This document shows positions 9,621-33,857 of a stretch of DNA of 33,857 nt, piece after piece. The notes below the pieces were generated by a model, which searched no databases, had not been told where the DNA came from, and was given only the letters and a program-made list of their open reading frames with translations. This DNA comes from a virus, in the IMG/VR virus record IMGVR_UViG_3300004369_000068, positions 1-33,857 of that record, one strand, 5' to 3'. The stretch's first letter is position 1, and every line of letters starts with the position of its first letter. The position numbers and the translations under genes are program-made.

Positions 9621-11605
9621 TGGCTACCAGCGTCGGGCTCAATTTTCGACTAACTGCTGCCGTCGATAAGTTTGAGGCGTCGATGCGTGACGTCGAAAAA
9701 CGTCTTGGCGGCATTGAAAAGGCCAGCGGGCAGACAGCTTCTGGCATGAAGCTGCTTGCCGGAATTGAGGTAGGCAAGCTGCTAGTAAGTGGCCTGTCAA
9801 CAGTGTTCAGCATCATGAAGTCTGGCGTCTCTACCGTGACGCAATTTGCCAGCCAGGCCGCTGCCGCAGCCGACGCGATTGGCAAGCTGTCGTCATCGAC
9901 CGGCATGGCCCATGAGCCGCTTCAAGTTTTTCAAAAGCTGGCAGCGGAAAACGGGATATCGGGCGACAAGTTAGGCGAAGCGGTCAAGAGGATGACCAAG
10001 CGGCTGGCCGAGGCCAAGATGGGATTCGGTGAGGCGTTGCCAGCCCTAGAGCGACTTGGGCTAAACGTCGAAGAGCTGGCGTCTATGAGGCCAGAGCAAG
10101 CATTCCTGAAGATCGGTGCGGCGATTGGTCAGCTGCCACAAAAGGGCGACCAAGCTGCGGCCGCCTTCAAGATATTCAGCGACCAGGGGCTGGCGATGGT
10201 TCCAATGTTCGCCAACCTTGAGGCCAACGTCAAAGACACTGCCGCTGAAATGCTGAGCTTAGGGCAAATCTTGAGCGGCACTCAGATCAAAAACATTGAG
10301 GCGATGAATGACGCCTTCAAAGATGTCAAACGCACGGCATTTCAAATTGGCACCCAAGTGCTGGCCAACTTCGCCCCGATGATAACAAAGGCCAACGAGC
10401 AGCTGCTGGAGTTCATCAAAAACTTTGAGTACAACGGTCTGACTGGCGGGCAGGGAATCGTGCAGTTTGCCTCTGACCAACTTGGAATTGTCGTCCAAGG
10501 CTTGGCGGAGGGGTTTGACAAGTTTATGAATATATTTACTAGTACAGTTAAAATGTTGCTAGAAGCCTTGGACAGCTTTTTGGCTGGTTTGAGTGTCGCG
10601 GTTGCTCCTTTCGTTTCCGCTGAAGCATCTGCGGGAATCTTAAATGCGGCAATGAAAGTCGATCATTTTGCGGCCAGCCTAGAGGGTGTCAGCTCTAACG
10701 TCAGCGGGTTCGTTGACGGAGCACTTAGGAACCTTCAGGATGCAGGCGGCGAGGCAGCTAAACAGCTCGAAATGCTTGGGATCGGGACGGAGTTAAGCAC
10801 GAAACAGATTAAAGAACTGTCAACGGGCGGAATGGACGCAACAAGTGCCATGAGCTCGCTTACAGCTGGGCTTATGGAATCCGCAAATGTAGTGCCGATC
10901 AGCTTAAAGGACTTAGGCTCTGCCACTCAGCGTGCAGTCGCATCGCTTGACATTAGCGGCCCTGCGAGCTTGGTGAAAGACGGACTTTCTGCTCTCATTG
11001 CAGCTCCAACGGTAGCTGCCTCTGGGCTTTCTGGGCTCGCGCAAGGATTTCTCGATGTGCTTGCTCCGCTGGGGTACACGAAGGAAAAGATTTTAGAGCT
11101 TGGCAAGGCCGCAAGCATAGCAAAGGACTTCAGGTCCGATCTATTTGACAAGCACATGGCGGCTTGGGATCAGCAGGCAACGATGGTGCGGGACAGGCTC
11201 ATATCAAATGGCATGAACGCATTCGAGGCGAACTATCTGATGATGCAAGAGCGTTCTAAAGAAACCGCTCTCGTGAACCAAGAACTCGACAGGTTGATGA
11301 ATGACCACCTGAAAAAGATCGGCGGTCTAAATGAAAACACTGACCAGGTAGGCCAAGCGGCTATTGTTCTTGGAGAAAAGCTTACCGGGGCAGCTAAGAC
11401 TGCATCGACCTGGCTGGAAGATTTGACATCTGGTGCTTCTAATTGGTGGGATGGTTTGTGGGGCGGTGAAGAAGGCAGCGGAGGCCCACAAATGCCAGAA
11501 TCTGAACAGACACTGCCAGAGCTTCAACGACAGACCGAAACGCTTGACGGCATTCTGGAAGCCGCGAAAGAATTTGGCGCAAGTTTCGTACTTGCGAGCT
11601 TTTAA
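9620..11605 (+). CDS. Tail tape measure protein
   Basis: 661 aa. Sets tail length and is ejected with DNA. Seen: an N-terminal coiled coil (ASMRDVEKRLGGIEKASGQ), hydrophobic and Ala/Gly-rich segments (ALDSFLAGLSVAVAPFVSAEASAGIL), long amphipathic helices, and the IGKLSSSTGMAHEPLQVFQKLAAENG block typical of phage tail tape measure domains. If the usual 1.5 angstroms per residue holds, the tail would be about 100 nm (established rule, rough). Position right after the chaperone pair supports the call. The mid-region near 10500-10700 is locally AT-richer. Confidence 0.9.
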   Translation: MATSVGLNFRLTAAVDKFEASMRDVEKRLGGIEKASGQTASGMKLLAGIEVGKLLVSGLSTVFSIMKSGVSTVTQFASQAAAAADAIGKLSSSTGMAHEPLQVFQKLAAENGISGDKLGEAVKRMTKRLAEAKMGFGEALPALERLGLNVEELASMRPEQAFLKIGAAIGQLPQKGDQAAAAFKIFSDQGLAMVPMFANLEANVKDTAAEMLSLGQILSGTQIKNIEAMNDAFKDVKRTAFQIGTQVLANFAPMITKANEQLLEFIKNFEYNGLTGGQGIVQFASDQLGIVVQGLAEGFDKFMNIFTSTVKMLLEALDSFLAGLSVAVAPFVSAEASAGILNAAMKVDHFAASLEGVSSNVSGFVDGALRNLQDAGGEAAKQLEMLGIGTELSTKQIKELSTGGMDATSAMSSLTAGLMESANVVPISLKDLGSATQRAVASLDISGPASLVKDGLSALIAAPTVAASGLSGLAQGFLDVLAPLGYTKEKILELGKAASIAKDFRSDLFDKHMAAWDQQATMVRDRLISNGMNAFEANYLMMQERSKETALVNQELDRLMNDHLKKIGGLNENTDQVGQAAIVLGEKLTGAAKTASTWLEDLTSGASNWWDGLWGGEEGSGGPQMPESEQTLPELQRQTETLDGILEAAKEFGASFVLASF

Positions 11606-15829: not shown

Positions 15830-16978
15830 ATGTCAATCAAGCTCGCAAACGCAGACATCTCCGCTTTATACCTCGGCTCGACTGCCGTCTCTGCGGCCTA
15901 CCTGGGGAGTACCAGCGTTTTTACCGCTGGCGGCGGTGGCGGCGGTAGTGCTGGCTCGCTATATGGCTGGGGCGTCAACAATATGTACCAGCTTGGCACC
16001 GGCAGCCTAGGGACAGTCTCGACTCCCACACAGATCGGATCGTCTCAGTGGTCCGACGTGTCCGGGTTCTGGGAGCACAGTTTAGGCATATCCAACGCCG
16101 GTCTCTACGCTTGGGGCACGGACAACGACGGCACGCTTGGTGGTGTCGGATTTAACGCCGCAACGCCGACGCAGATCGGCAGTGATAATTGGTCTAAGGT
16201 TGCTGCTGGGCAAACTCATTCGCTGGCCATCGACGCCGCAGGAAATCTTTTTGCGTGGGGGAGCAACGCATACGGTCAGCTTGGGGACGGCACGACGACT
16301 AATAGAGCCACACCAACGCAGATTGGCTCTGACACTTGGTCAGCCATCGCAGCGGGCACGCAGCATAGCTGCGGAATTAAAAGCAATGGCACGCTGTGGA
16401 ACTGGGGGCCGGGCACCAAGTTAGGCAGCGGCAACTCCGACAGCACAAGCCCTGTGCAGGTTGGCTCTGACACATGGTCAGAAATTAAAATCTCCAAGGG
16501 TGGGGCATTTACAGTCGGCATAACATCAGGCGGTGCTCTCTATTGCTGGGGCTATTTCGTTTACGGGCTCACAGGCGACACCAACACCTATCTTGCGGAG
16601 GCCTTTTCTCCTCAACTCGTAGACTCCGGGCCGTGGCTGACTGCATCAGCAGGAACTAATCACATTGTCGCGATAAAGACGAATGGGGATCTTTACGCAT
16701 GGGGGCTCGGCTCCTCTGGACAACTCGGAAATGGCGGCACCTCGGCTTCCTACGACATTAGCCAAATCGGATCTGCCCAATGGTCTGACGTGAGTTGTGG
16801 AGCGACTCACACAATAGCCATCGCCAGCGACTCGACACTTTACGGCTGGGGAAATAACAGCACCTCTCAGCTGGGCGACGGCACGACGACCAACAGGCTT
16901 TCACCGACGCAGATCGACTCGGGCACTTGGCTGAGTGTGGCGGCTGGTCAAAATTACTCGTTAGCGATCAAGCAGTGA
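15830..16978 (+). CDS. RCC1-repeat beta-propeller protein (probable receptor-binding)
   Basis: 382 aa. The N-terminus has two copies of a short fibre-attachment-like motif (YLGSTAVSAAYLGSTSV), then a Gly-rich hinge (GGGGGGSAG) and about seven RCC1-type blades, each about 47-50 residues: AGLYAWGTDNDGTLG...TPTQIGSDNWSKVAAGQTHSLAI, repeated as NLFAWGSNAYGQLGDGTTTNRATPTQIGSDTW and so on. The repeated W-G / Q-L-G / D-G-T core is characteristic. RCC1 propellers bind ligands, and here the hinge plus position suggest a distal adhesin. Function is inferred. Confidence 0.82.
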   Translation: MSIKLANADISALYLGSTAVSAAYLGSTSVFTAGGGGGGSAGSLYGWGVNNMYQLGTGSLGTVSTPTQIGSSQWSDVSGFWEHSLGISNAGLYAWGTDNDGTLGGVGFNAATPTQIGSDNWSKVAAGQTHSLAIDAAGNLFAWGSNAYGQLGDGTTTNRATPTQIGSDTWSAIAAGTQHSCGIKSNGTLWNWGPGTKLGSGNSDSTSPVQVGSDTWSEIKISKGGAFTVGITSGGALYCWGYFVYGLTGDTNTYLAEAFSPQLVDSGPWLTASAGTNHIVAIKTNGDLYAWGLGSSGQLGNGGTSASYDISQIGSAQWSDVSCGATHTIAIASDSTLYGWGNNSTSQLGDGTTTNRLSPTQIDSGTWLSVAAGQNYSLAIKQ

Positions 16979-27122: not shown

Positions 27123-27320
27123 GTGCGAATTGACACGCTGACCCGCCAACTGCTGCGGCGGGCATGGGACGACGAGATAAGCGACGGCGACCGGCTTCTG
27201 CTTGAGCAGGCCGCCACGATGATCGACCGATTGGCAAGACGCTGCCTGAGAGTTGCTCAGGAGCTTGAACGTGTGGAGTTTCTTAACAAGGAGGGTAGAG
27301 AACATGACAGCGGTCTGTGA
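27123..27320 (+). CDS. Small helical protein before the clamp
   Basis: 65 aa with GTG start at 27123. RIDTLTRQLLRRAWDDEISDGDRLLLEQAATMIDRLARRCLRVAQELERVEFLNKEG. Fully helical. Overlaps the clamp gene start by 17 nt. The GTG has a moderate RBS (TTGGAGACAAACC). Not recognised. Confidence 0.6.
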   Translation: MRIDTLTRQLLRRAWDDEISDGDRLLLEQAATMIDRLARRCLRVAQELERVEFLNKEGREHDSGL

Positions 27321-28389
27321 ACAAATCAGCCGCCGCGACTTGGCGGCGGCCCTGAGCATCTGCGGGCGAGTGGTGCCACGGCGGGCACTGGCCGAGGTGT
27401 ACCAGAGCGTCAGCCTGGCGGCCGGGGCCGCCGAGGCAACAGACGGCGAGCTGCGGGTGAGCGTGCCGATTCCCTACGACGGCGAGCCGATCCTGCTGCC
27501 GTATGCTCGCCTAGAAGCCCTGACGCGGGCCTGTACGGGCGAACAGTTGGAAATCGACTCCGAGGACGGCCAGGCGACGATACGGGCTGGAGGGGGCCGC
27601 TGGCGGCTTCCTACGGTGGCCCATTCTGAGTGGCCCGAGGCGGCAGATGTGCAGGCCGTGCCGGTGGCCCGCATCCCAGGCGACCAGCTGCGGCGTGCCC
27701 TCGATGCCGTTTTGGATGCTGCTGACAGCGAGTCAAGCCGGTACGCACTGGCTGGCGTGCGGGTGGAGGTCGAAGACGGCGTGGTGCATGTAGTGGCCAC
27801 CGATGGCCGACGCCTGCACGTCTGCGAAGTGGAGATCGACCAGGCCGTAGATGACTGCCAGCTGTTGATCCCGGTGAGGGCCGCGGGGCTGATCGCTACG
27901 CTTTGCCGCCAGACCGAAGAGGAGGTGCAGCTGGAGCGTTCCGGCGAAGAGGTCCGAGCGACCTGGGGCGAAAGCGGCCTGTGGTTGCGATGCCGTCAGC
28001 TGGCTGGCAACTACCCGGCTTGGCGTGCCGCCATCCCAGAGCGGCCCGAAGCAACCCGTGTGGTTGTGCGAGCCGACCATCTTGCCCAGGCACTGCGGCA
28101 AGCGGCGATCTGCACCAGCGAGACGTCGCGGGCAATCACGCTGACGATTGGCGAGCAGATCACAGCCACCGCGGAATCGTCAGAGGCCGGGGCAAGCACG
28201 GTCACGCTTGAGGCTATCGAGGCCACCGGCACGGTGAGCGTCAAAGTCGATCCGACCTATTGTGTGGCTTGGCTGCGGACGTGCGATCAGGTCGAGCCGA
28301 TCACCGTCGAGGCGTCAGACAGCGGCTCAGCCCTTGTGTTCCGTAGCGAGGACGCAACCGGGGTGGTGATGCCGATGGGGGACGACTGA
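27304..28389 (+). CDS. dnaN-like: DNA polymerase III beta sliding clamp (DnaN-like)
   Basis: 361 aa. Three-domain DNA clamp tethering the polymerase to DNA. Features: N-terminal ISRRDLAAALSICGRVVPRR and LRVSVPIPYDGEPILLPYARLEALTRA; ALAGVRVEVEDGVVHVVATDGRRLHVCEVEI (the classic DnaN second-domain block); and the third domain ending DQVEPITVEASDSGSALVFRSEDATGVVMPMG, which resembles the bacterial MPMR C-terminus. ATG 27304 with AAGGAGGG about 9 nt upstream. No phage DNA polymerase is present, so it presumably acts with host Pol III or a translesion enzyme. Confidence 0.9.
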   Translation: MTAVCEQISRRDLAAALSICGRVVPRRALAEVYQSVSLAAGAAEATDGELRVSVPIPYDGEPILLPYARLEALTRACTGEQLEIDSEDGQATIRAGGGRWRLPTVAHSEWPEAADVQAVPVARIPGDQLRRALDAVLDAADSESSRYALAGVRVEVEDGVVHVVATDGRRLHVCEVEIDQAVDDCQLLIPVRAAGLIATLCRQTEEEVQLERSGEEVRATWGESGLWLRCRQLAGNYPAWRAAIPERPEATRVVVRADHLAQALRQAAICTSETSRAITLTIGEQITATAESSEAGASTVTLEAIEATGTVSVKVDPTYCVAWLRTCDQVEPITVEASDSGSALVFRSEDATGVVMPMGDD

Positions 28390-28782: not shown

Positions 28783-29640
28783 ATGGATGCCAAGCGAATA
28801 CTAAACCTCGGTGCCGGAGTGCAAAGCACAGCTTTGTACCTGATGGCCCTCGATGGCGAGATTGAGCCCATTGACGTCGCAATTTTTGCCGACGTCCAAG
28901 AGGAGCCGGGGGACGTTTACAAGCACCTTGACTGGCTCGACAGTCTGGGCGGGCCGCCAATCCTGCGAGTGACCGCTGGTCGTCTCGGTGATGCTCTGGA
29001 CAAAGGCTGTGATGCTCTTGGCAATCAACGCAGCGACGGTGGTCACTATATCGCGATTCCGGCGTTCACGCTGCACCCAGACGGGCGAGCCGGGCGGATA
29101 CAAAGGCAATGCACAAAAGACTTCAAGATCGTTCCGGTCGAGAAGGCAATAAGGCAGCAAGTCTTTGGCTGCGAGCCAGGCAGGCCAGTGCCCAAAGAAT
29201 CACAAGTAGTCCAGTTGATGGGCCTAAGTTATGACGAACCTAAGCGAGTCATTCGAGTTAAACAGCGGTTTTTAGCGAAGCCTAAAAACTGGACGATTGA
29301 GTTTCCGCTGTTTGAGTTGGAAATGACACGCGGCGACTGTATCTCGTATTTGCGGGAGCGTGTGCCGCATGAGGTGCCACGATCTGCTTGCGTGTTCTGT
29401 CCATTCAAAAGCGACAGCGAATGGAGACGGTTGCGCGACAATGACCCGGCCGGTTGGCAGCGGGCACTGCATGTTGACGAGACGTGCAGAACTGGAACAG
29501 GGCTTGATGCTCAGCGATTCCTACACAGATCGTGCCTGCCGCTTGCTGAAGTAGACCTAAGGCCAGCGGACGAAAAAACAGGGCAGCGGCATTTGTTCAG
29601 CGGTTGGCAGGACGAGTGCGAGGGTTACTGTGGAAACTGA
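28783..29640 (+). CDS. PP-loop protein, PAPS reductase/DndC-like family
   Basis: 285 aa. RILNLGAGVQSTALYLMALDG is a PP-loop (SGGxxS-like, here GAGVQST), followed by IDVAIFADVQEEPGDVYKHLDWL. Also GRAGRIQRQCTKDFKIVPVEKAIRQ, LMGLSYDEPKRV, FPLFELEMTRGDCISYLRERVPHEVPRSACVFCPFKSDSEWRRLRDNDP (CxxC at about residues 204-207) and W-rich tail. Family members activate a substrate with ATP; in phages the substrate is unknown. Possibly linked to DNA or nucleotide modification, inferred from the methyltransferase and DUF1599-like genes. Confidence 0.78.
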   Translation: MDAKRILNLGAGVQSTALYLMALDGEIEPIDVAIFADVQEEPGDVYKHLDWLDSLGGPPILRVTAGRLGDALDKGCDALGNQRSDGGHYIAIPAFTLHPDGRAGRIQRQCTKDFKIVPVEKAIRQQVFGCEPGRPVPKESQVVQLMGLSYDEPKRVIRVKQRFLAKPKNWTIEFPLFELEMTRGDCISYLRERVPHEVPRSACVFCPFKSDSEWRRLRDNDPAGWQRALHVDETCRTGTGLDAQRFLHRSCLPLAEVDLRPADEKTGQRHLFSGWQDECEGYCGN

Positions 29641-30223
29641 CCCCTACCAGAGCGAGTTCACTGTGCCCGGCGACCCCGTGCCGCAATCGCGGCCGAGGGT
29701 CACACGCTCAGGGAATGTGTACTACGCCGACCGCATTGTGAGATACCGCCGCGAGGTGGTACTGGCGGCCCGTGCTGCCAGACTGCCGCTGCGGGAGGGT
29801 CCAGTCTGGCTTGGCATCGAGGCAGTGTTCCAAAGGCCCAAGTCCCATATTAAAAAACGGGGGGGGGTGGGGGTGCGACCCGATGCCGCCGCCTTCCCGT
29901 TTAGTCGAGGCGATTGCAGCAACCTAGCGAAAGGCATTGAGGACGCACTTCTCGGCGTTGCTTACAAGGACGACTCGCAAGTGGTGGAGCTGACAGTCAG
30001 GAAACGCTGGGCAAAGCCCGGCGAGGATGCCGCGGCAATTGTCACCATCTGTGACATTGAACCGCTTCCAGACGTTGCCGAGAAGAGGCGTGATGCAGTG
30101 AAAAGAAGCTGGACAGTAGCCGAGCGAGAAGAGCGGCGAGTGCACAAGCCGAGGACGCTGCAAGAAGAGCGAATGTTACAATGGGGTGACATTCTGCGCG
30201 ATGAGGATTTGGATGCCGGATGA
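29630..30223 (+). CDS. rusA-like: RusA-like Holliday junction resolvase
   Basis: 197 aa, GTG start overlapping the PP-loop gene by 11 nt. FTVPGDPVPQSRPRVTRSGNVYYAD..., GDCSNLAKGIEDALLGVAYKDDSQVVELTVRKRW with acidic D95, D105 and D114/D115 (motif D..N..K...DAL......DD.QV) is typical of RusA. Resolves recombination intermediates or trims branched DNA before packaging. Contains the G9-T-G5 tract (29859-29873), encoding KKRGGVGV. C-terminal tail of about 60 residues is a charged extension not found in short RusA proteins. Confidence 0.9.
   Translation: METDPYQSEFTVPGDPVPQSRPRVTRSGNVYYADRIVRYRREVVLAARAARLPLREGPVWLGIEAVFQRPKSHIKKRGGVGVRPDAAAFPFSRGDCSNLAKGIEDALLGVAYKDDSQVVELTVRKRWAKPGEDAAAIVTICDIEPLPDVAEKRRDAVKRSWTVAEREERRVHKPRTLQEERMLQWGDILRDEDLDAG
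29859..29873 (+). repeat. G9-T-G5 tract in the RusA-like gene
   Basis: One of several G7-9 runs in coding sequence. It follows an A-run (TAAAAAAC) and is in the RusA-like reading frame. Compare 31585-31597 (G8-T-G4) and 32349-32360 (G8-T-G3). Confidence 0.7.
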
Positions 30224-30437
30224 AGAAGTCAGCAATATGGGCGATCCAATCGCAACTGTCATATTGCAGAGCGATGGCAAGGGCTATGAGCTGATATTGG
30301 CCGGGGGCGGTGGCGTCGTCAGAAAGCACGAGTTTTTCGGCCCGTTCAAAAGTAACAAAAAGAAAGCCAGGGCGACGTTGCGGTTGCTCTGGCACATTGC
30401 CTACCAAACAATTCAGGACGAGGTGCTTGATGATTAG
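30213..30437 (+). CDS. Small unknown protein
   Basis: 74 aa from ATG 30213 (GAGG about 7 nt upstream); ATG 30237 is another option. ATVILQSDGKGYELILAGGGGVVRKHEFFGPFKSNKKKARATLRLLWHIAYQTIQDEVLDD: an alpha/beta mini-domain with a basic patch. Overlaps RusA by 11 nt and the next gene by 8 nt. No family call. Confidence 0.58.
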   Translation: MPDEEVSNMGDPIATVILQSDGKGYELILAGGGGVVRKHEFFGPFKSNKKKARATLRLLWHIAYQTIQDEVLDD

Positions 30438-30804
30438 CAGCAAGCCTCTGATGATCGCCTCGCAGAAATTAAATCTGCACGACAAAGTGACGGCATACAT
30501 TGCCCAGGCACGAACGGCGGCCGCCGATGGTCTAACGATTGCCGAGCTGGCCGAGCTCATCGTGGCAGCGATGCGGCTCGCCATCGCGGCAGTCGATCAC
30601 CTAGAGCTGGCCGGTGACACGAAGCGGCAGATTGTGGCTGACTTGGCGGCAACGCTGTTCGATGAGTTCGCTGATCTGCTTGTGCCGACCGTGCTGCGGC
30701 CGATGTGGTGGCTGGTCAAGCCAACGCTTCGCACGTTCGTACACGCTGCCGCCGCTGGTGCTGTTGATGCCCTTCTTCCTCTCGTAAGGATTGCCGACGA
30801 ATGA
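30430..30804 (+). CDS. Amphipathic helical protein (possibly membrane-associated)
   Basis: 124 aa from ATG 30430. VTAYIAQARTAAADGLTIAELAELIVAAMRLAIAAVDHLELAGDTKRQIVADLAATLFDEFADLLVPTVLRPMWWLVKPTLRTFVHAAAAGAVDALLPLVR. The layout (long helix, conserved-looking TKRQIV, then a Trp/Ala-rich hydrophobic stretch) might suit a holin-like protein. No clear transmembrane count; the call is speculative. Confidence 0.6.
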   Translation: MISSKPLMIASQKLNLHDKVTAYIAQARTAAADGLTIAELAELIVAAMRLAIAAVDHLELAGDTKRQIVADLAATLFDEFADLLVPTVLRPMWWLVKPTLRTFVHAAAAGAVDALLPLVRIADE

Positions 30805-31061
30805 TGACCTGGTTGCTCGCGGTTGCGGCCGCTGCTGTTGCGTTATGGCCGACCGGCAAAAAGGCTGCACCCTCGGCCTATGTGCCGAGCACGCTTGAGA
30901 TTGACCCGCCGAAGCGTCAGACAACGTACCTCGATGCGGTTGCTTGTTTGCAAAAAGTCAGACAGCGACTCACGCACACAAATCATCTTGAGGACGAGCA
31001 GACCGAAGCCTTAGACGTCCTGACGCTGGCACTGTCAGCAGGGAGCGACGTCGAAGAATGA
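30801..31061 (+). CDS. Small N-terminally anchored membrane protein
   Basis: 86 aa: TWLLAVAAAAVALWPTGKK is one hydrophobic segment, then a Pro-rich linker and a helical cytoplasmic or periplasmic tail (LDAVACLQKVRQRLTHTNHLEDEQTEALDVLTLALSAG). ATGA coupled on both sides. First of several membrane-anchored genes. No family assigned. Confidence 0.65.
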   Translation: MMTWLLAVAAAAVALWPTGKKAAPSAYVPSTLEIDPPKRQTTYLDAVACLQKVRQRLTHTNHLEDEQTEALDVLTLALSAGSDVEE

Positions 31062-31504
31062 GAGCCAGGCTGCTAATCATCGCCGTGATGTTTGCGTTGT
31101 ACTGGCTGAGCCGCCCAGGCCCGGCTGAGCCGACACCGGCACCGCCGCCGCCCGGCGAGCTAGACCTGGCGGGAGCGTTCAGCGGCGAGACTGCCGCCGA
31201 CGATGCGGCAATCGTTGCGGCCCTAGCTGGTGAGCTGGCCGATTGCATCGAGTTCGACCGGATGACTGCCGATCCTGTGCTGACCAGCGGCGTTGCACTC
31301 GACCAGCTACGCACCCGCTCGCGGGAGTTCCGCTGCGACGGCCGGATTTTGGGCGAGCAGCATCCCGAGCTGGCCCGACGAGTTGGCGACTACCTCGACC
31401 GCAAGCTCGGCAACGCTGGCGGGCCTGTCACGCCCGAGCAGCTGAGCAAGTGGGTGAGCTGCTACCGCGAGATTGAGAGGGCCGCCACCAGTGCCATACG
31501 ATAG
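31058..31504 (+). CDS. Membrane-anchored protein with Pro-rich linker and helical domain
   Basis: 148 aa. RARLLIIAVMFALYWLSRPG is an anchor; PAEPTPAPPPPG a linker; then AGELADCIEFDRMTADPVLTSGVALDQLRTRSREFRCDGRILG and LARRVGDYLDRKLGN..VTPEQLSKWVSCYREIERAATSA. I associate this layout with planctomycete prophages, but cannot verify. Overlaps the next gene by 14 nt. Confidence 0.65.
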   Translation: MRARLLIIAVMFALYWLSRPGPAEPTPAPPPPGELDLAGAFSGETAADDAAIVAALAGELADCIEFDRMTADPVLTSGVALDQLRTRSREFRCDGRILGEQHPELARRVGDYLDRKLGNAGGPVTPEQLSKWVSCYREIERAATSAIR

Positions 31505-32570
31505 GCCAGGCTGGCGGCTCGCAGTCGCTGGCATGCTCATCACGCTGTATGCCCTTGCGTTGTGGAACGCCCCCGAAAGAAACAGGGGGGGGTGGGGTGC
31601 CGACTCAAACTTCGGTTACCAGCCAGACCCGGCCGGAGCCGCTGAGTTTCTTGAATCGCTTGATGTGCGATTTTTCTCTGATGCCGCACCGGACGCGATG
31701 GAGAAGGCCGAGGAGGTCGATACCTTCCTGTGGCGGCAGCTCAACGACGCCTGCCTAGCACGTTACGGCGAGCCATTCACGCCAGGCCGCCAGCTAAACG
31801 GTTCCTGCGTTGCCTGGGGAGCAATGCACGCTGTCTGGATTGCCGAGGCTATCGAGTGGAAGCTAGGCAACCGCAGCGAGCCACCCGTCATGCCAAGCAC
31901 GGAAAGCATCTATGGCGGCAGTAGGGTAGAAGCGAGAGGTAAGCCGGGCGACGGTGCCAGGCCAGTCGGCGGCTGGAGCGATGGCAGCACCGGATACGCT
32001 GCTGCCAAGTGGCTCAGAGATTGGGGCGTCATCTACCGGCGAGACTACGGCGACGGCCTCGACCTTCGCACCTACAGCAAAGATGTCGAGAAGCGTTGGG
32101 GCGCATACGGTAACGGTGGCGAAGGCGACGGCGGCCGCTTCGATAAGGTTGCATCCGAGACACCATGCCGCCACGTTGTCGCGGTGAAGACCTGGGCCGA
32201 GCTGGTCGCAGCGATCACCAGCGGTTTCCCGGTCACGATTGCAAGCAGCCAAGGCTTTAACAAGACGCGAGACGCTGACGGATTCTGCAAAGCGAGCGGA
32301 ACATGGATGCACCAGATGTGCATTGCCGGAATCCGTTTCAAAAAAAATGGGGGGGGTGGGTTGCCCCGCGACGGTGCTCTGATCGTCAACAGTTGGGGGG
32401 ACTACGTTCAAGGCGGCAAGTGGCCCGACGATCAGCCCGATGGCACCTTCTGGGCAGAGCGTGAGACTGTCGAGCGAATACTAAGCCAGGGCGATTGCTG
32501 GGCGATTGCCGAGGTGGAGTTCAAGTGGCGTGACATTCGACATGACAAGTGGTTGGGAGTTGAGCAGTGA
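31491..32570 (+). CDS. Membrane-anchored papain-like cysteine protease (C1-type)
   Basis: 359 aa from GTG 31491. One N-terminal hydrophobic segment (RLAVAGMLITLYALALW), then an extracytoplasmic region. Catalytic-type residues in papain order: C106 in RQLNGSCVAWGAMHA, H274 in GTWMHQMCIAGI, N300 in LIVNSWGDY. Also STESIYGGSRVEARG and DGSTGYAAAKWLRDWGVIYRRDYGD. Could cleave host or phage proteins, or act as an unusual lysis enzyme; substrate unknown. Two G-tracts lie in the gene (31585-31597, 32349-32360). Coupled by ATGA-like overlap to the next membrane gene. Confidence 0.78.
   Translation: MPYDRPGWRLAVAGMLITLYALALWNAPERNRGGWGADSNFGYQPDPAGAAEFLESLDVRFFSDAAPDAMEKAEEVDTFLWRQLNDACLARYGEPFTPGRQLNGSCVAWGAMHAVWIAEAIEWKLGNRSEPPVMPSTESIYGGSRVEARGKPGDGARPVGGWSDGSTGYAAAKWLRDWGVIYRRDYGDGLDLRTYSKDVEKRWGAYGNGGEGDGGRFDKVASETPCRHVVAVKTWAELVAAITSGFPVTIASSQGFNKTRDADGFCKASGTWMHQMCIAGIRFKKNGGGGLPRDGALIVNSWGDYVQGGKWPDDQPDGTFWAERETVERILSQGDCWAIAEVEFKWRDIRHDKWLGVEQ
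31585..31597 (+). repeat. G8-T-G4 tract in the papain-like gene
   Basis: Run of 8 G, T, then 4 G, following GAAAGAAACA. It codes for RGGWG in the linker after the membrane segment, so the length could be tuned by slippage. Confidence 0.7.
32349..32360 (+). repeat. G8-T-G3 tract in the papain-like gene
   Basis: Follows seven A (AAAAAAAT). It encodes NGGGG just before the catalytic Asn segment. Same pattern as the other G-tracts. Confidence 0.7.
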
Positions 32571-32815
32571 AACTTCTTGAGCGTTACAAGGTTTTTGTAG
32601 TGGTGGCCCTTCTGGCGTTTGCCCTCGGCTCATACGTTGCCAACGAGACTGGGCGACGATCAGAGCGGCCCATGCTGCGGTGGATCAGCACCGCGGCGAA
32701 GTGGGGCTTGCGTGCGATGGTATTCCTTGATCCACCGCCGCCCGTCGAGCAGCAATACCAGACGTGCATCGGTGCCGATGGTTACCGGCAGCTCGACCAT
32801 CAGCGGAGCCTGTAG
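32567..32815 (+). CDS. Small membrane protein
   Basis: 82 aa. LLERYKVFVVVALLAFALGSYVANETGRRSERPMLRWISTAAKWGLRAMVFL contains one N-terminal transmembrane segment and an amphipathic one, then a Pro-rich tail with a single Cys (TCIGADGYRQLDHQ). Fourth membrane protein in a row, so a candidate component of the lysis or superinfection cassette. Family not recognised. Confidence 0.62.
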   Translation: MKLLERYKVFVVVALLAFALGSYVANETGRRSERPMLRWISTAAKWGLRAMVFLDPPPPVEQQYQTCIGADGYRQLDHQRSL

Positions 32816-33136
32816 ATGAACTGGCTGGCAGCGATCCTGACGTGGTTTGCGGCTGACCCGCACGCCATCGACACCGAGCGACCGCGGGCCGCCGCGTGCG
32901 TGATGGCGGCACATGCCAGCATGGCAAAACAAGGGGGTCAGGATGCCGCAGAAGATACCAACACTGAGGCCTCCTTGGTTGTGCCAGGTGGAGGCATCGC
33001 AAAAGCGGGACGAAACGAACCGGCTGACAGCAGCGGAGCGAGGATATTGCAGCAAACGCCACAAGGCGTGGCGTCAGGCTGTACTGACGGCAAGTGCGTG
33101 GCAGTGCCGCGAGTGCGGCAAAGTGTGCGCCGGTGA
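32816..33136 (+). CDS. Small protein overlapping the HNH gene
   Basis: 106 aa. MNWLAAILTWFAADPHAIDTERPRAAACVMAAHASM is its own sequence; the remainder (SLVVPGGGIAKAGRNEPADSS...SGCTDGKCVAVPRVR) is read in another frame of the HNH gene for 194 nt. The first about 42 codons fill a stretch with no other gene. The Cys-xxx-GKC C-terminus resembles small-protein tails. Confidence is moderate. Confidence 0.48.
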   Translation: MNWLAAILTWFAADPHAIDTERPRAAACVMAAHASMAKQGGQDAAEDTNTEASLVVPGGGIAKAGRNEPADSSGARILQQTPQGVASGCTDGKCVAVPRVRQSVRR

Positions 33137-33830
33137 GAGAGACGCGCACGCTGACCACACCAGCCCAGTCGTTGTGGGTACTGAATACTGCGAGAACGGG
33201 CTGAGCAGATACGACCCAGCGGCCGGGCAGTGCCTGTGTGCATCGTGCCACGGAAGGAAAACAGCGAGAGAGCAAAATGGCGCTAGCGATAAAGGCTCTT
33301 GGTCGCCTCACCCCAAATGGTTACCAAAAAGCAAAATCCCGCTGATCGTGGTTTGCGGCCCCCCAGCATCAGGCAAAAACGCATACGTCGAAGCTAAAAT
33401 GAAACCGGGAGACCTTGTGATTGACCTAGACGAAATAGGTTCTCGGATGGCAAACACCGCGACGCATTGCTGGGACAGGCGATTGCTGCCGCGTGCCATG
33501 CGGCACAGAAACAAAATGCTTGCGGACCTTGGCACTAAGGCCGCGAGCCACTACAAGCGAGCCTGGTTGATAGTTTGTGAGCCGTTGCCCGAGTACCGCC
33601 AGTATTGGGTTGACAAGCTAGGGGCGAAAGAGGTGGTTGTGATAGAAACACCAGAGCGAGCTTGCGAGTCTCGCATACTATCAGCGAAGGATCGTAGGCA
33701 GCAGAGCGGCACTGCTAGAGACTGGTGGCGTGAGTATGTGCCGAGGCACGGCGATAAGGTTGTGCGGCCCGCAAAACGCCGCAGCGGGCCTGTTATGGGC
33801 AAGATTGAGCAAGTGGATGGGGGGGAGTAA
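32943..33830 (+). CDS. HNH endonuclease fused to a P-loop kinase-like domain
   Basis: 295 aa from ATG 32943. The N-terminal HNH has ERGYCSKRHKAWR, zinc knuckle CRECG (C55, C58), DAHADHTSP (H69, D71, H72) and CLCASCHGRKTARE (C99, C102, H103). From residue about 130 there is a P-loop domain: IPLIVVCGPPASGKNAYVE (Walker A with Asn in the Ser/Thr position), LVIDLDEIGSRM, and arginine-rich segments. HNH proteins flanking terminase are known parts of HK97-type packaging (established), so it likely cuts or matures DNA. The fused kinase-like half is unusual. Confidence 0.85.
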   Translation: MPQKIPTLRPPWLCQVEASQKRDETNRLTAAERGYCSKRHKAWRQAVLTASAWQCRECGKVCAGERDAHADHTSPVVVGTEYCENGLSRYDPAAGQCLCASCHGRKTAREQNGASDKGSWSPHPKWLPKSKIPLIVVCGPPASGKNAYVEAKMKPGDLVIDLDEIGSRMANTATHCWDRRLLPRAMRHRNKMLADLGTKAASHYKRAWLIVCEPLPEYRQYWVDKLGAKEVVVIETPERACESRILSAKDRRQQSGTARDWWREYVPRHGDKVVRPAKRRSGPVMGKIEQVDGGE

Positions 33831-33849
33831 GTCACGGGGAGGCCGTTTT

Positions 33850-33857
33850 ATGAAAAC
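33850..33857 (+). CDS. Possible start of a gene cut by the window end
   Basis: ATGAAAAC at 33850, preceded by GGGGAGG (33836-33842) with 7 nt spacing, which is a good RBS. If the window ends join, the frame would close after only 12 codons (at position 31), just before terS. Otherwise the gene continues outside the window. Confidence 0.3.

Follow-up and report, generated by a model that had tools for sequence, protein, structure and literature searches.

We identified a conserved cassette of six co-directional, mostly overlapping genes, in the order A-B-C-PROT-E-F, that is probably a lysis module in which a papain-type peptidase, PROT, replaces the canonical endolysin. It lies in a viral record of 33,857 bases, which was analyzed over its whole length and is called the window here. 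The original prediction from this DNA had named lysis, superinfection exclusion, and a host-surface protease as possible roles. Among these, the evidence favors lysis because the cassette occupies the lysis position of phage lambda, PROT is distributed like a core gene, and searches of these records turned up no known peptidoglycan hydrolase.

The peptidase PROT and its family

PROT (31491..32570, plus strand) starts with GTG, stops at 32570, and encodes 359 amino acids that comprise an N-terminal transmembrane (TM) anchor and a papain-like (C1-type) cysteine peptidase domain with Q101, C106, H274, and N300. The original prediction had read C106, H274, and N300 in papain order from this frame, behind a transmembrane segment. 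Both the coordinates and the residues were verified, and a hydrophobic segment at about residues 7 to 28, the predicted anchor, precedes the catalytic residues. Such a segment is likewise predicted ahead of an FGY motif in all 75 distinct near relatives. Q101, which we take to be the counterpart of papain's oxyanion-hole Gln, is unchanged together with C106, H274, and N300 in 33 of 33 aligned relatives (39 to 96% identical), where these residues lie in Q..GxC and NSWG motifs; the relatives thus keep all three residues on which the original prediction depended. Among 18 much more divergent homologues, the Gln, Cys, and His are invariant, and two have Gln in place of the Asn. As judged from these alignments, the conservation of the active site is far beyond chance. 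All of the cassette genes that were compared with loci L001 and L003 gave dN/dS values of 0.06 to 0.25; the comparison of gene A with L002, which gave about 1, was left out because the L002 stretch used has an internal stop.

An AlphaFold2 model built from the 33-sequence alignment (pLDDT 85.7, pTM 0.83) gave 163 Foldseek matches in the PDB at E values up to 0.001. The best was xylellain (3ois; E = 5.2e-11), followed by cathepsins B and L, with a Foldseek probability of 1.00 for xylellain and the cathepsins and a TM-score by target of up to 0.68. PROT is therefore modeled with a papain fold, in line with the original prediction. It has in common with xylellain and other C1 papain/cathepsin peptidases the Gln-Cys...His...Asn arrangement and the GxC and NSWG motifs; however, it is only 10 to 19% identical to the listed PDB matches, is TM anchored, belongs to a phage cassette, and is missed by Pfam Peptidase_C1 (PF00112), for which the window protein was unmatched and the best of the 33 members reached only an E value of 0.085. 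No Pfam, PHROG, or NCBIfam model named the window protein in single-protein searches, and phmmer found no relative among PDB sequences, whereas a profile of the family matched cathepsins across the His-Asn region (E = 0.0084 to 0.46). On the model and these searches, PROT represents a distinct family with a predicted papain fold, outside PF00112.

A degenerate-pattern scan of IMG/VR returned 46 relatives from a single sequence and at least 580 stretches from an alignment query, whereas no relative was encoded by any of 50,697 phage genome records, and tblastn searches of GenBank phages with five different family members were negative. In BFVD, papain-fold proteins from uncultured tailed phages, such as the Caudovirales Peptidase_C1 protein A0A6J5TCZ4, match PROT at 13 to 20% identity; we know of no cassette around those proteins. 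The CHAP and NlpC/P60 endolysins (clan CA) share the papain-like superfamily with PROT, but the fold matches of PROT are C1 peptidases. Papain-superfamily lysins (CHAP, NlpC/P60) and phage C1 peptidases as annotations are already known, and phage CHAP endolysins lyse with a Cys/His hydrolase (PMC10318531).

Genes of the cassette

A search for the neighborhood in other phages, as the original prediction had proposed, was carried out with tblastn and iterated profiles and yielded 129 loci, which come from the window and about 120 other distinct contigs. In nearly all of them, the order A-(B)-C-PROT-E-F is kept on one strand. In the window, all six genes are on the plus strand, and adjacent genes share 4 to 14 bases, except that E and F abut. 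The three flanking membrane proteins that had been named at the outset (30801-31061, 31058-31504, and 32567-32815) are real, but the count was too low, since a hydrophobic protein (30430-30804) and a small protein (32816-33136) also belong to the cassette.

Gene A (30430..30804) encodes a helical hydrophobic protein of 124 amino acids beginning MISSKPL and has a homologue upstream of PROT in 111 loci. Of 89 distinct members, 87 have a strongest hydrophobic segment of 1.6 KD or higher, and in diverged prophages the slot holds small two-TM proteins. We infer that gene A is a candidate holin or releasin. Gene B (30801..31061; 86 amino acids, an N-terminal TM segment and a short helical domain) is optional, being present in 43 loci, and in many loci without it gene C bears an additional N-terminal TM segment. 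Gene C (31058..31504; 148 amino acids) is the most constant partner of PROT (122 loci) and is predicted, with a pLDDT of 93, to have one N-terminal TM helix, which a Pro-rich linker connects to a helical domain of about 100 amino acids. The predicted fold had no match in the PDB, and the confidently predicted helical domain is a candidate new fold. In the divergent prophage L194, gene C is a lipoprotein (10827-11294, lipobox LLPGC).

Downstream of PROT, gene E (32567..32815; 82 amino acids; 117 loci) has an N-terminal TM segment, an amphipathic helix, and a conserved C-terminal tail. Gene F (32816..33136; 106 amino acids; 113 loci) has a short hydrophobic N terminus, and its relatives bear a zinc-ribbon-like CxxCxGxG motif. 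In several planctomycete prophages, the F slot is taken by a thioredoxin-like protein (loci L049, L051, and L195-L197), and a single protein in that slot of L194 combines the motif with a thioredoxin-like part. Searches of the partners against Pfam and PHROG gave no significant holin or spanin match, the PHROG spanin matches being weak (E = 0.019 to 0.093), which counts against a lysis module.

Genome position and hosts

The genome runs end-TerS-TerL-portal-...-integrase-...-beta clamp-RusA-cassette-HNH-end. TerS (45-518) and TerL (469-2061) lie on the plus strand at the left end. TerL-relative contigs share one start, which lies some 460 bases ahead of TerL; the motif conserved there before TerS (L221, L226, L227, L236, L244, and L275, and positions 1-60 of the window) reads like GCGTGCG..GCAGAAATC..CGCCGTTTT. 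The window (examined at 33800-33857), L275, and L165 all end in ...AAAC. These shared starts and AAAC ends are probable physical (cos) ends, and therefore the 33,857-base record is probably a complete, lambda-like cos-ended genome. Elsewhere on the map, the window encodes an RCC1-repeat (beta-propeller) protein of 382 amino acids downstream of the tail genes (15830-16978; best Pfam RCC1 E value, 2e-51) and a phage DNA polymerase III beta clamp (27253-28389) that is also retained in several relatives.

The left neighbor of the cassette is a RusA Holliday-junction resolvase (29630..30223, plus strand; Pfam RusA, 2.4e-21), and an HNH/AAA protein (32913..33830, plus strand) lies between it and the right genome end; the true start of the latter is probably downstream of the listed one because the listed start overlaps gene F. 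The cassette thus sits between rusA and the genome end adjoining TerS. In phage lambda, S-R-Rz likewise forms the final block ahead of the TerS-side genome end, and the cassette therefore occupies a known lysis position, just before TerS on the circular map. Beyond this shared map place, no protein homology with S-R-Rz/Rz1 was found; the cassette has more genes and a protease instead of lambda's transglycosylase.

The structural genes around the cassette vary from genome to genome. In G018 it is flanked by portal and capsid genes, and in L189 and L191 it separates head from tail genes; these placements count against a lysis function. They, and the closeness of the cassette to packaging genes, would suit a role in the virion or in DNA entry, in which a tail or capsid protease aids envelope crossing at infection or matures virion proteins. 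We consider such a role very improbable because PROT and its partners carry TM anchors, the position of the cassette relative to head and tail genes varies, and the window has a separate S78 prohead protease. Because the S78 protease is separately encoded, prohead maturation by PROT was rejected.

Of the TerL-relative contigs that extend 5 kb or more upstream of TerL, all 14 encode a PROT homologue, which is kept even when diverged to an E value of about 1e-32. On this evidence, PROT appears to be a core gene in these phages. The contigs bear on whether the cassette serves superinfection exclusion or lysogenic conversion, with the membrane proteins and a protease at the cell surface changing the host envelope so that other phages are kept out. 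The integrase in the window marks the phage as temperate, small membrane proteins with a periplasmic enzyme would suit exclusion morons, and homologues persist in cellular genomes, including two from Mucilaginibacter without evident prophage genes. Morons are optional, yet PROT is found in every testable contig at a fixed place, the cassette genes overlap as one operon, and this explanation would leave the phages without any recognizable lysis system; we regard it as quite improbable.

Four of eight cellular genome matches to PROT are Planctomycetota (L048, L050, L054, and L051, which is Blastopirellula marina DSM 3645); the others are one further bacterium, two Mucilaginibacter, and one small alphaproteobacterial MAG contig. 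Matches occurred in 13 of 392 Planctomycetota genomes versus 2 of 395 Bacteroidota genomes, one of the 2 being broken and weak, and several planctomycete copies adjoin apparent terminase, portal, or tail genes as read from the sequence. Because the cellular relatives are mainly Planctomycetota, the host of the window phage is presumably a planctomycete. The two Mucilaginibacter homologues (L053 and L055, both at about 10,000) lack the anchor and are located in Bacteroidota chromosomes with no evident prophage around them, which counts against lysis; the active site is kept in L053, and a domesticated copy is possible.

Diverged relatives differ in how PROT is deployed. In L185, L188, L194, L275, and L277, it has no anchor and would be soluble, and these copies adjoin small TM proteins that resemble holins by topology only. 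In one TerL-relative subgroup, PROT is about 30% identical and anchor-less, gene A and mostly gene C are not recognized, and small TM proteins surround PROT. Lipoproteins precede PROT in L186, L188-L192, and L194; in all of these except L188, the genes directly before PROT encode a lipoprotein, with a lipobox such as LAGC or LLPGC, and a small two-TM protein, the two being fused in one open reading frame (ORF) in L189-L192. These small proteins were assigned by topology, as Pfam and PHROG searches did not name them. In L185 (6709-8383), PROT is followed by two paralogous TM and coiled-coil proteins, a TM and coil protein, and a small hydrophobic protein, a candidate lysis set. Several loci among L275-L279 and L281 carry, upstream of PROT, a glycosyltransferase (L275, 492-1262; Pfam Glycos_transf_2) and an uncharacterized ORF family (homologous to G002 L146:19077-19949), which are possible envelope-modifying neighbors.

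A candidate route to lysis

Seven peptidoglycan-hydrolase families, Amidase_2, Phage_lysozyme (GH24), Peptidase_M15_3, SLT, NLPC_P60, Peptidase_M23, and CHAP, were each found in 0 of 30 cassette-bearing records, some of which may be fragments, while control genomes were positive. Pfam scanning of 57 ORFs of the window gave no lysin among the best 25 of 35 families, and the complete Pfam list for 43 of these ORFs (20 families) also contained none. The original statement that no classical endolysin is visible holds for these scans; a hydrolase family that they do not recognize may be encoded elsewhere in these genomes, which counts against PROT as the lysin. Nor was a standard spanin pair recognized in the window, which would agree with an accessory role in lysis, whereby PROT cuts envelope proteins (outer-membrane or S-layer-like proteins or lipoprotein tethers) in a spanin-like manner and an unrecognized enzyme cuts the peptidoglycan. 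C1 peptidases normally cut proteins, which counts against PROT as the lysin, and the peptidoglycan-cutting papain-fold enzymes known to us belong to the CHAP, NlpC/P60, or amidase families. Furthermore, the partners are anchored and predicted to be periplasmic, and lipoproteins lie beside PROT in several prophages. The accessory role nevertheless calls for a peptidoglycan hydrolase, for which there was no candidate by Pfam in the window or by the seven families in the 30 records, and we think it unlikely.

With PROT itself as the lysin, which we consider probable, the cassette would be the late lysis module of a temperate tailed phage lineage of Planctomycetota, and the peptidase would be a muralytic or envelope-degrading enzyme that replaces lysozyme, amidase, transglycosylase, NlpC/P60, CHAP, M15, and M23 enzymes. 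PROT would be made with an N-terminal signal anchor, its positive N terminus inside and its catalytic domain outside, and be held at the inner membrane until triggered, like a SAR endolysin. Gene A, with B, would be the likely membrane-permeabilizing or releasing partner; C and E would be periplasmic envelope partners, possibly with spanin-like roles; and F, or the thioredoxin-like replacements in relatives, may maintain or generate the reduced form of the catalytic Cys in the periplasm. An anchor-less peptidase beside small TM proteins, as found in diverged relatives, would act as in soluble-endolysin systems. Planctomycete sacculi contain lysozyme-sensitive peptidoglycan (PMC4432640); either its stem peptides or an envelope protein could therefore be the substrate. 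Given this sensitivity, an ordinary lysin would also have been possible, which counts against lysis by a protease.

Among the closest precedents are the SAR-endolysin systems, namely, Lyz of P1 and gp22 of Mu with its releasin gp25; in Mu, no holin is needed, as a partner tethered to the membrane can free the anchored enzyme (PMC9239132). PROT likewise has a predicted N-terminal anchor and adjacent small TM partners, and the alternation of anchored and soluble forms beside small TM proteins in its relatives recalls holin/endolysin and SAR-endolysin systems. The catalytic domain of PROT, however, is of the papain peptidase type, the likeness appears to be one of topology rather than of sequence, and SAR-type release is putative.

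Literature searches found no described lysis system of a planctomycete phage and no account of a conserved C1-type cassette at the lysis position of such phages; a chronic, non-lysing planctomycete phage has been reported (PMC10945688). Because no known cell-wall-cutting enzyme was found and the protease cassette is conserved, temperate phages of planctomycetes may burst their hosts in an as yet undescribed way. A broader proposal, which we put forward tentatively and with some doubt, is that the whole planctomycete phage lineage lyses without a canonical peptidoglycan hydrolase, through an anchored papain-type protease activated by membrane and thiol-redox partners. Such protease-based lysis would perhaps be fitted to the unusual planctomycete envelope. 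Defined genes and active-site residues, together with a prophage host that can be cultured (Blastopirellula marina), make the cassette accessible to experiment. If true, the lysis function would introduce an enzyme class that is new to phage lysis, would bear on what holds the planctomycete envelope together, and would make many uncultured viral contigs annotatable.
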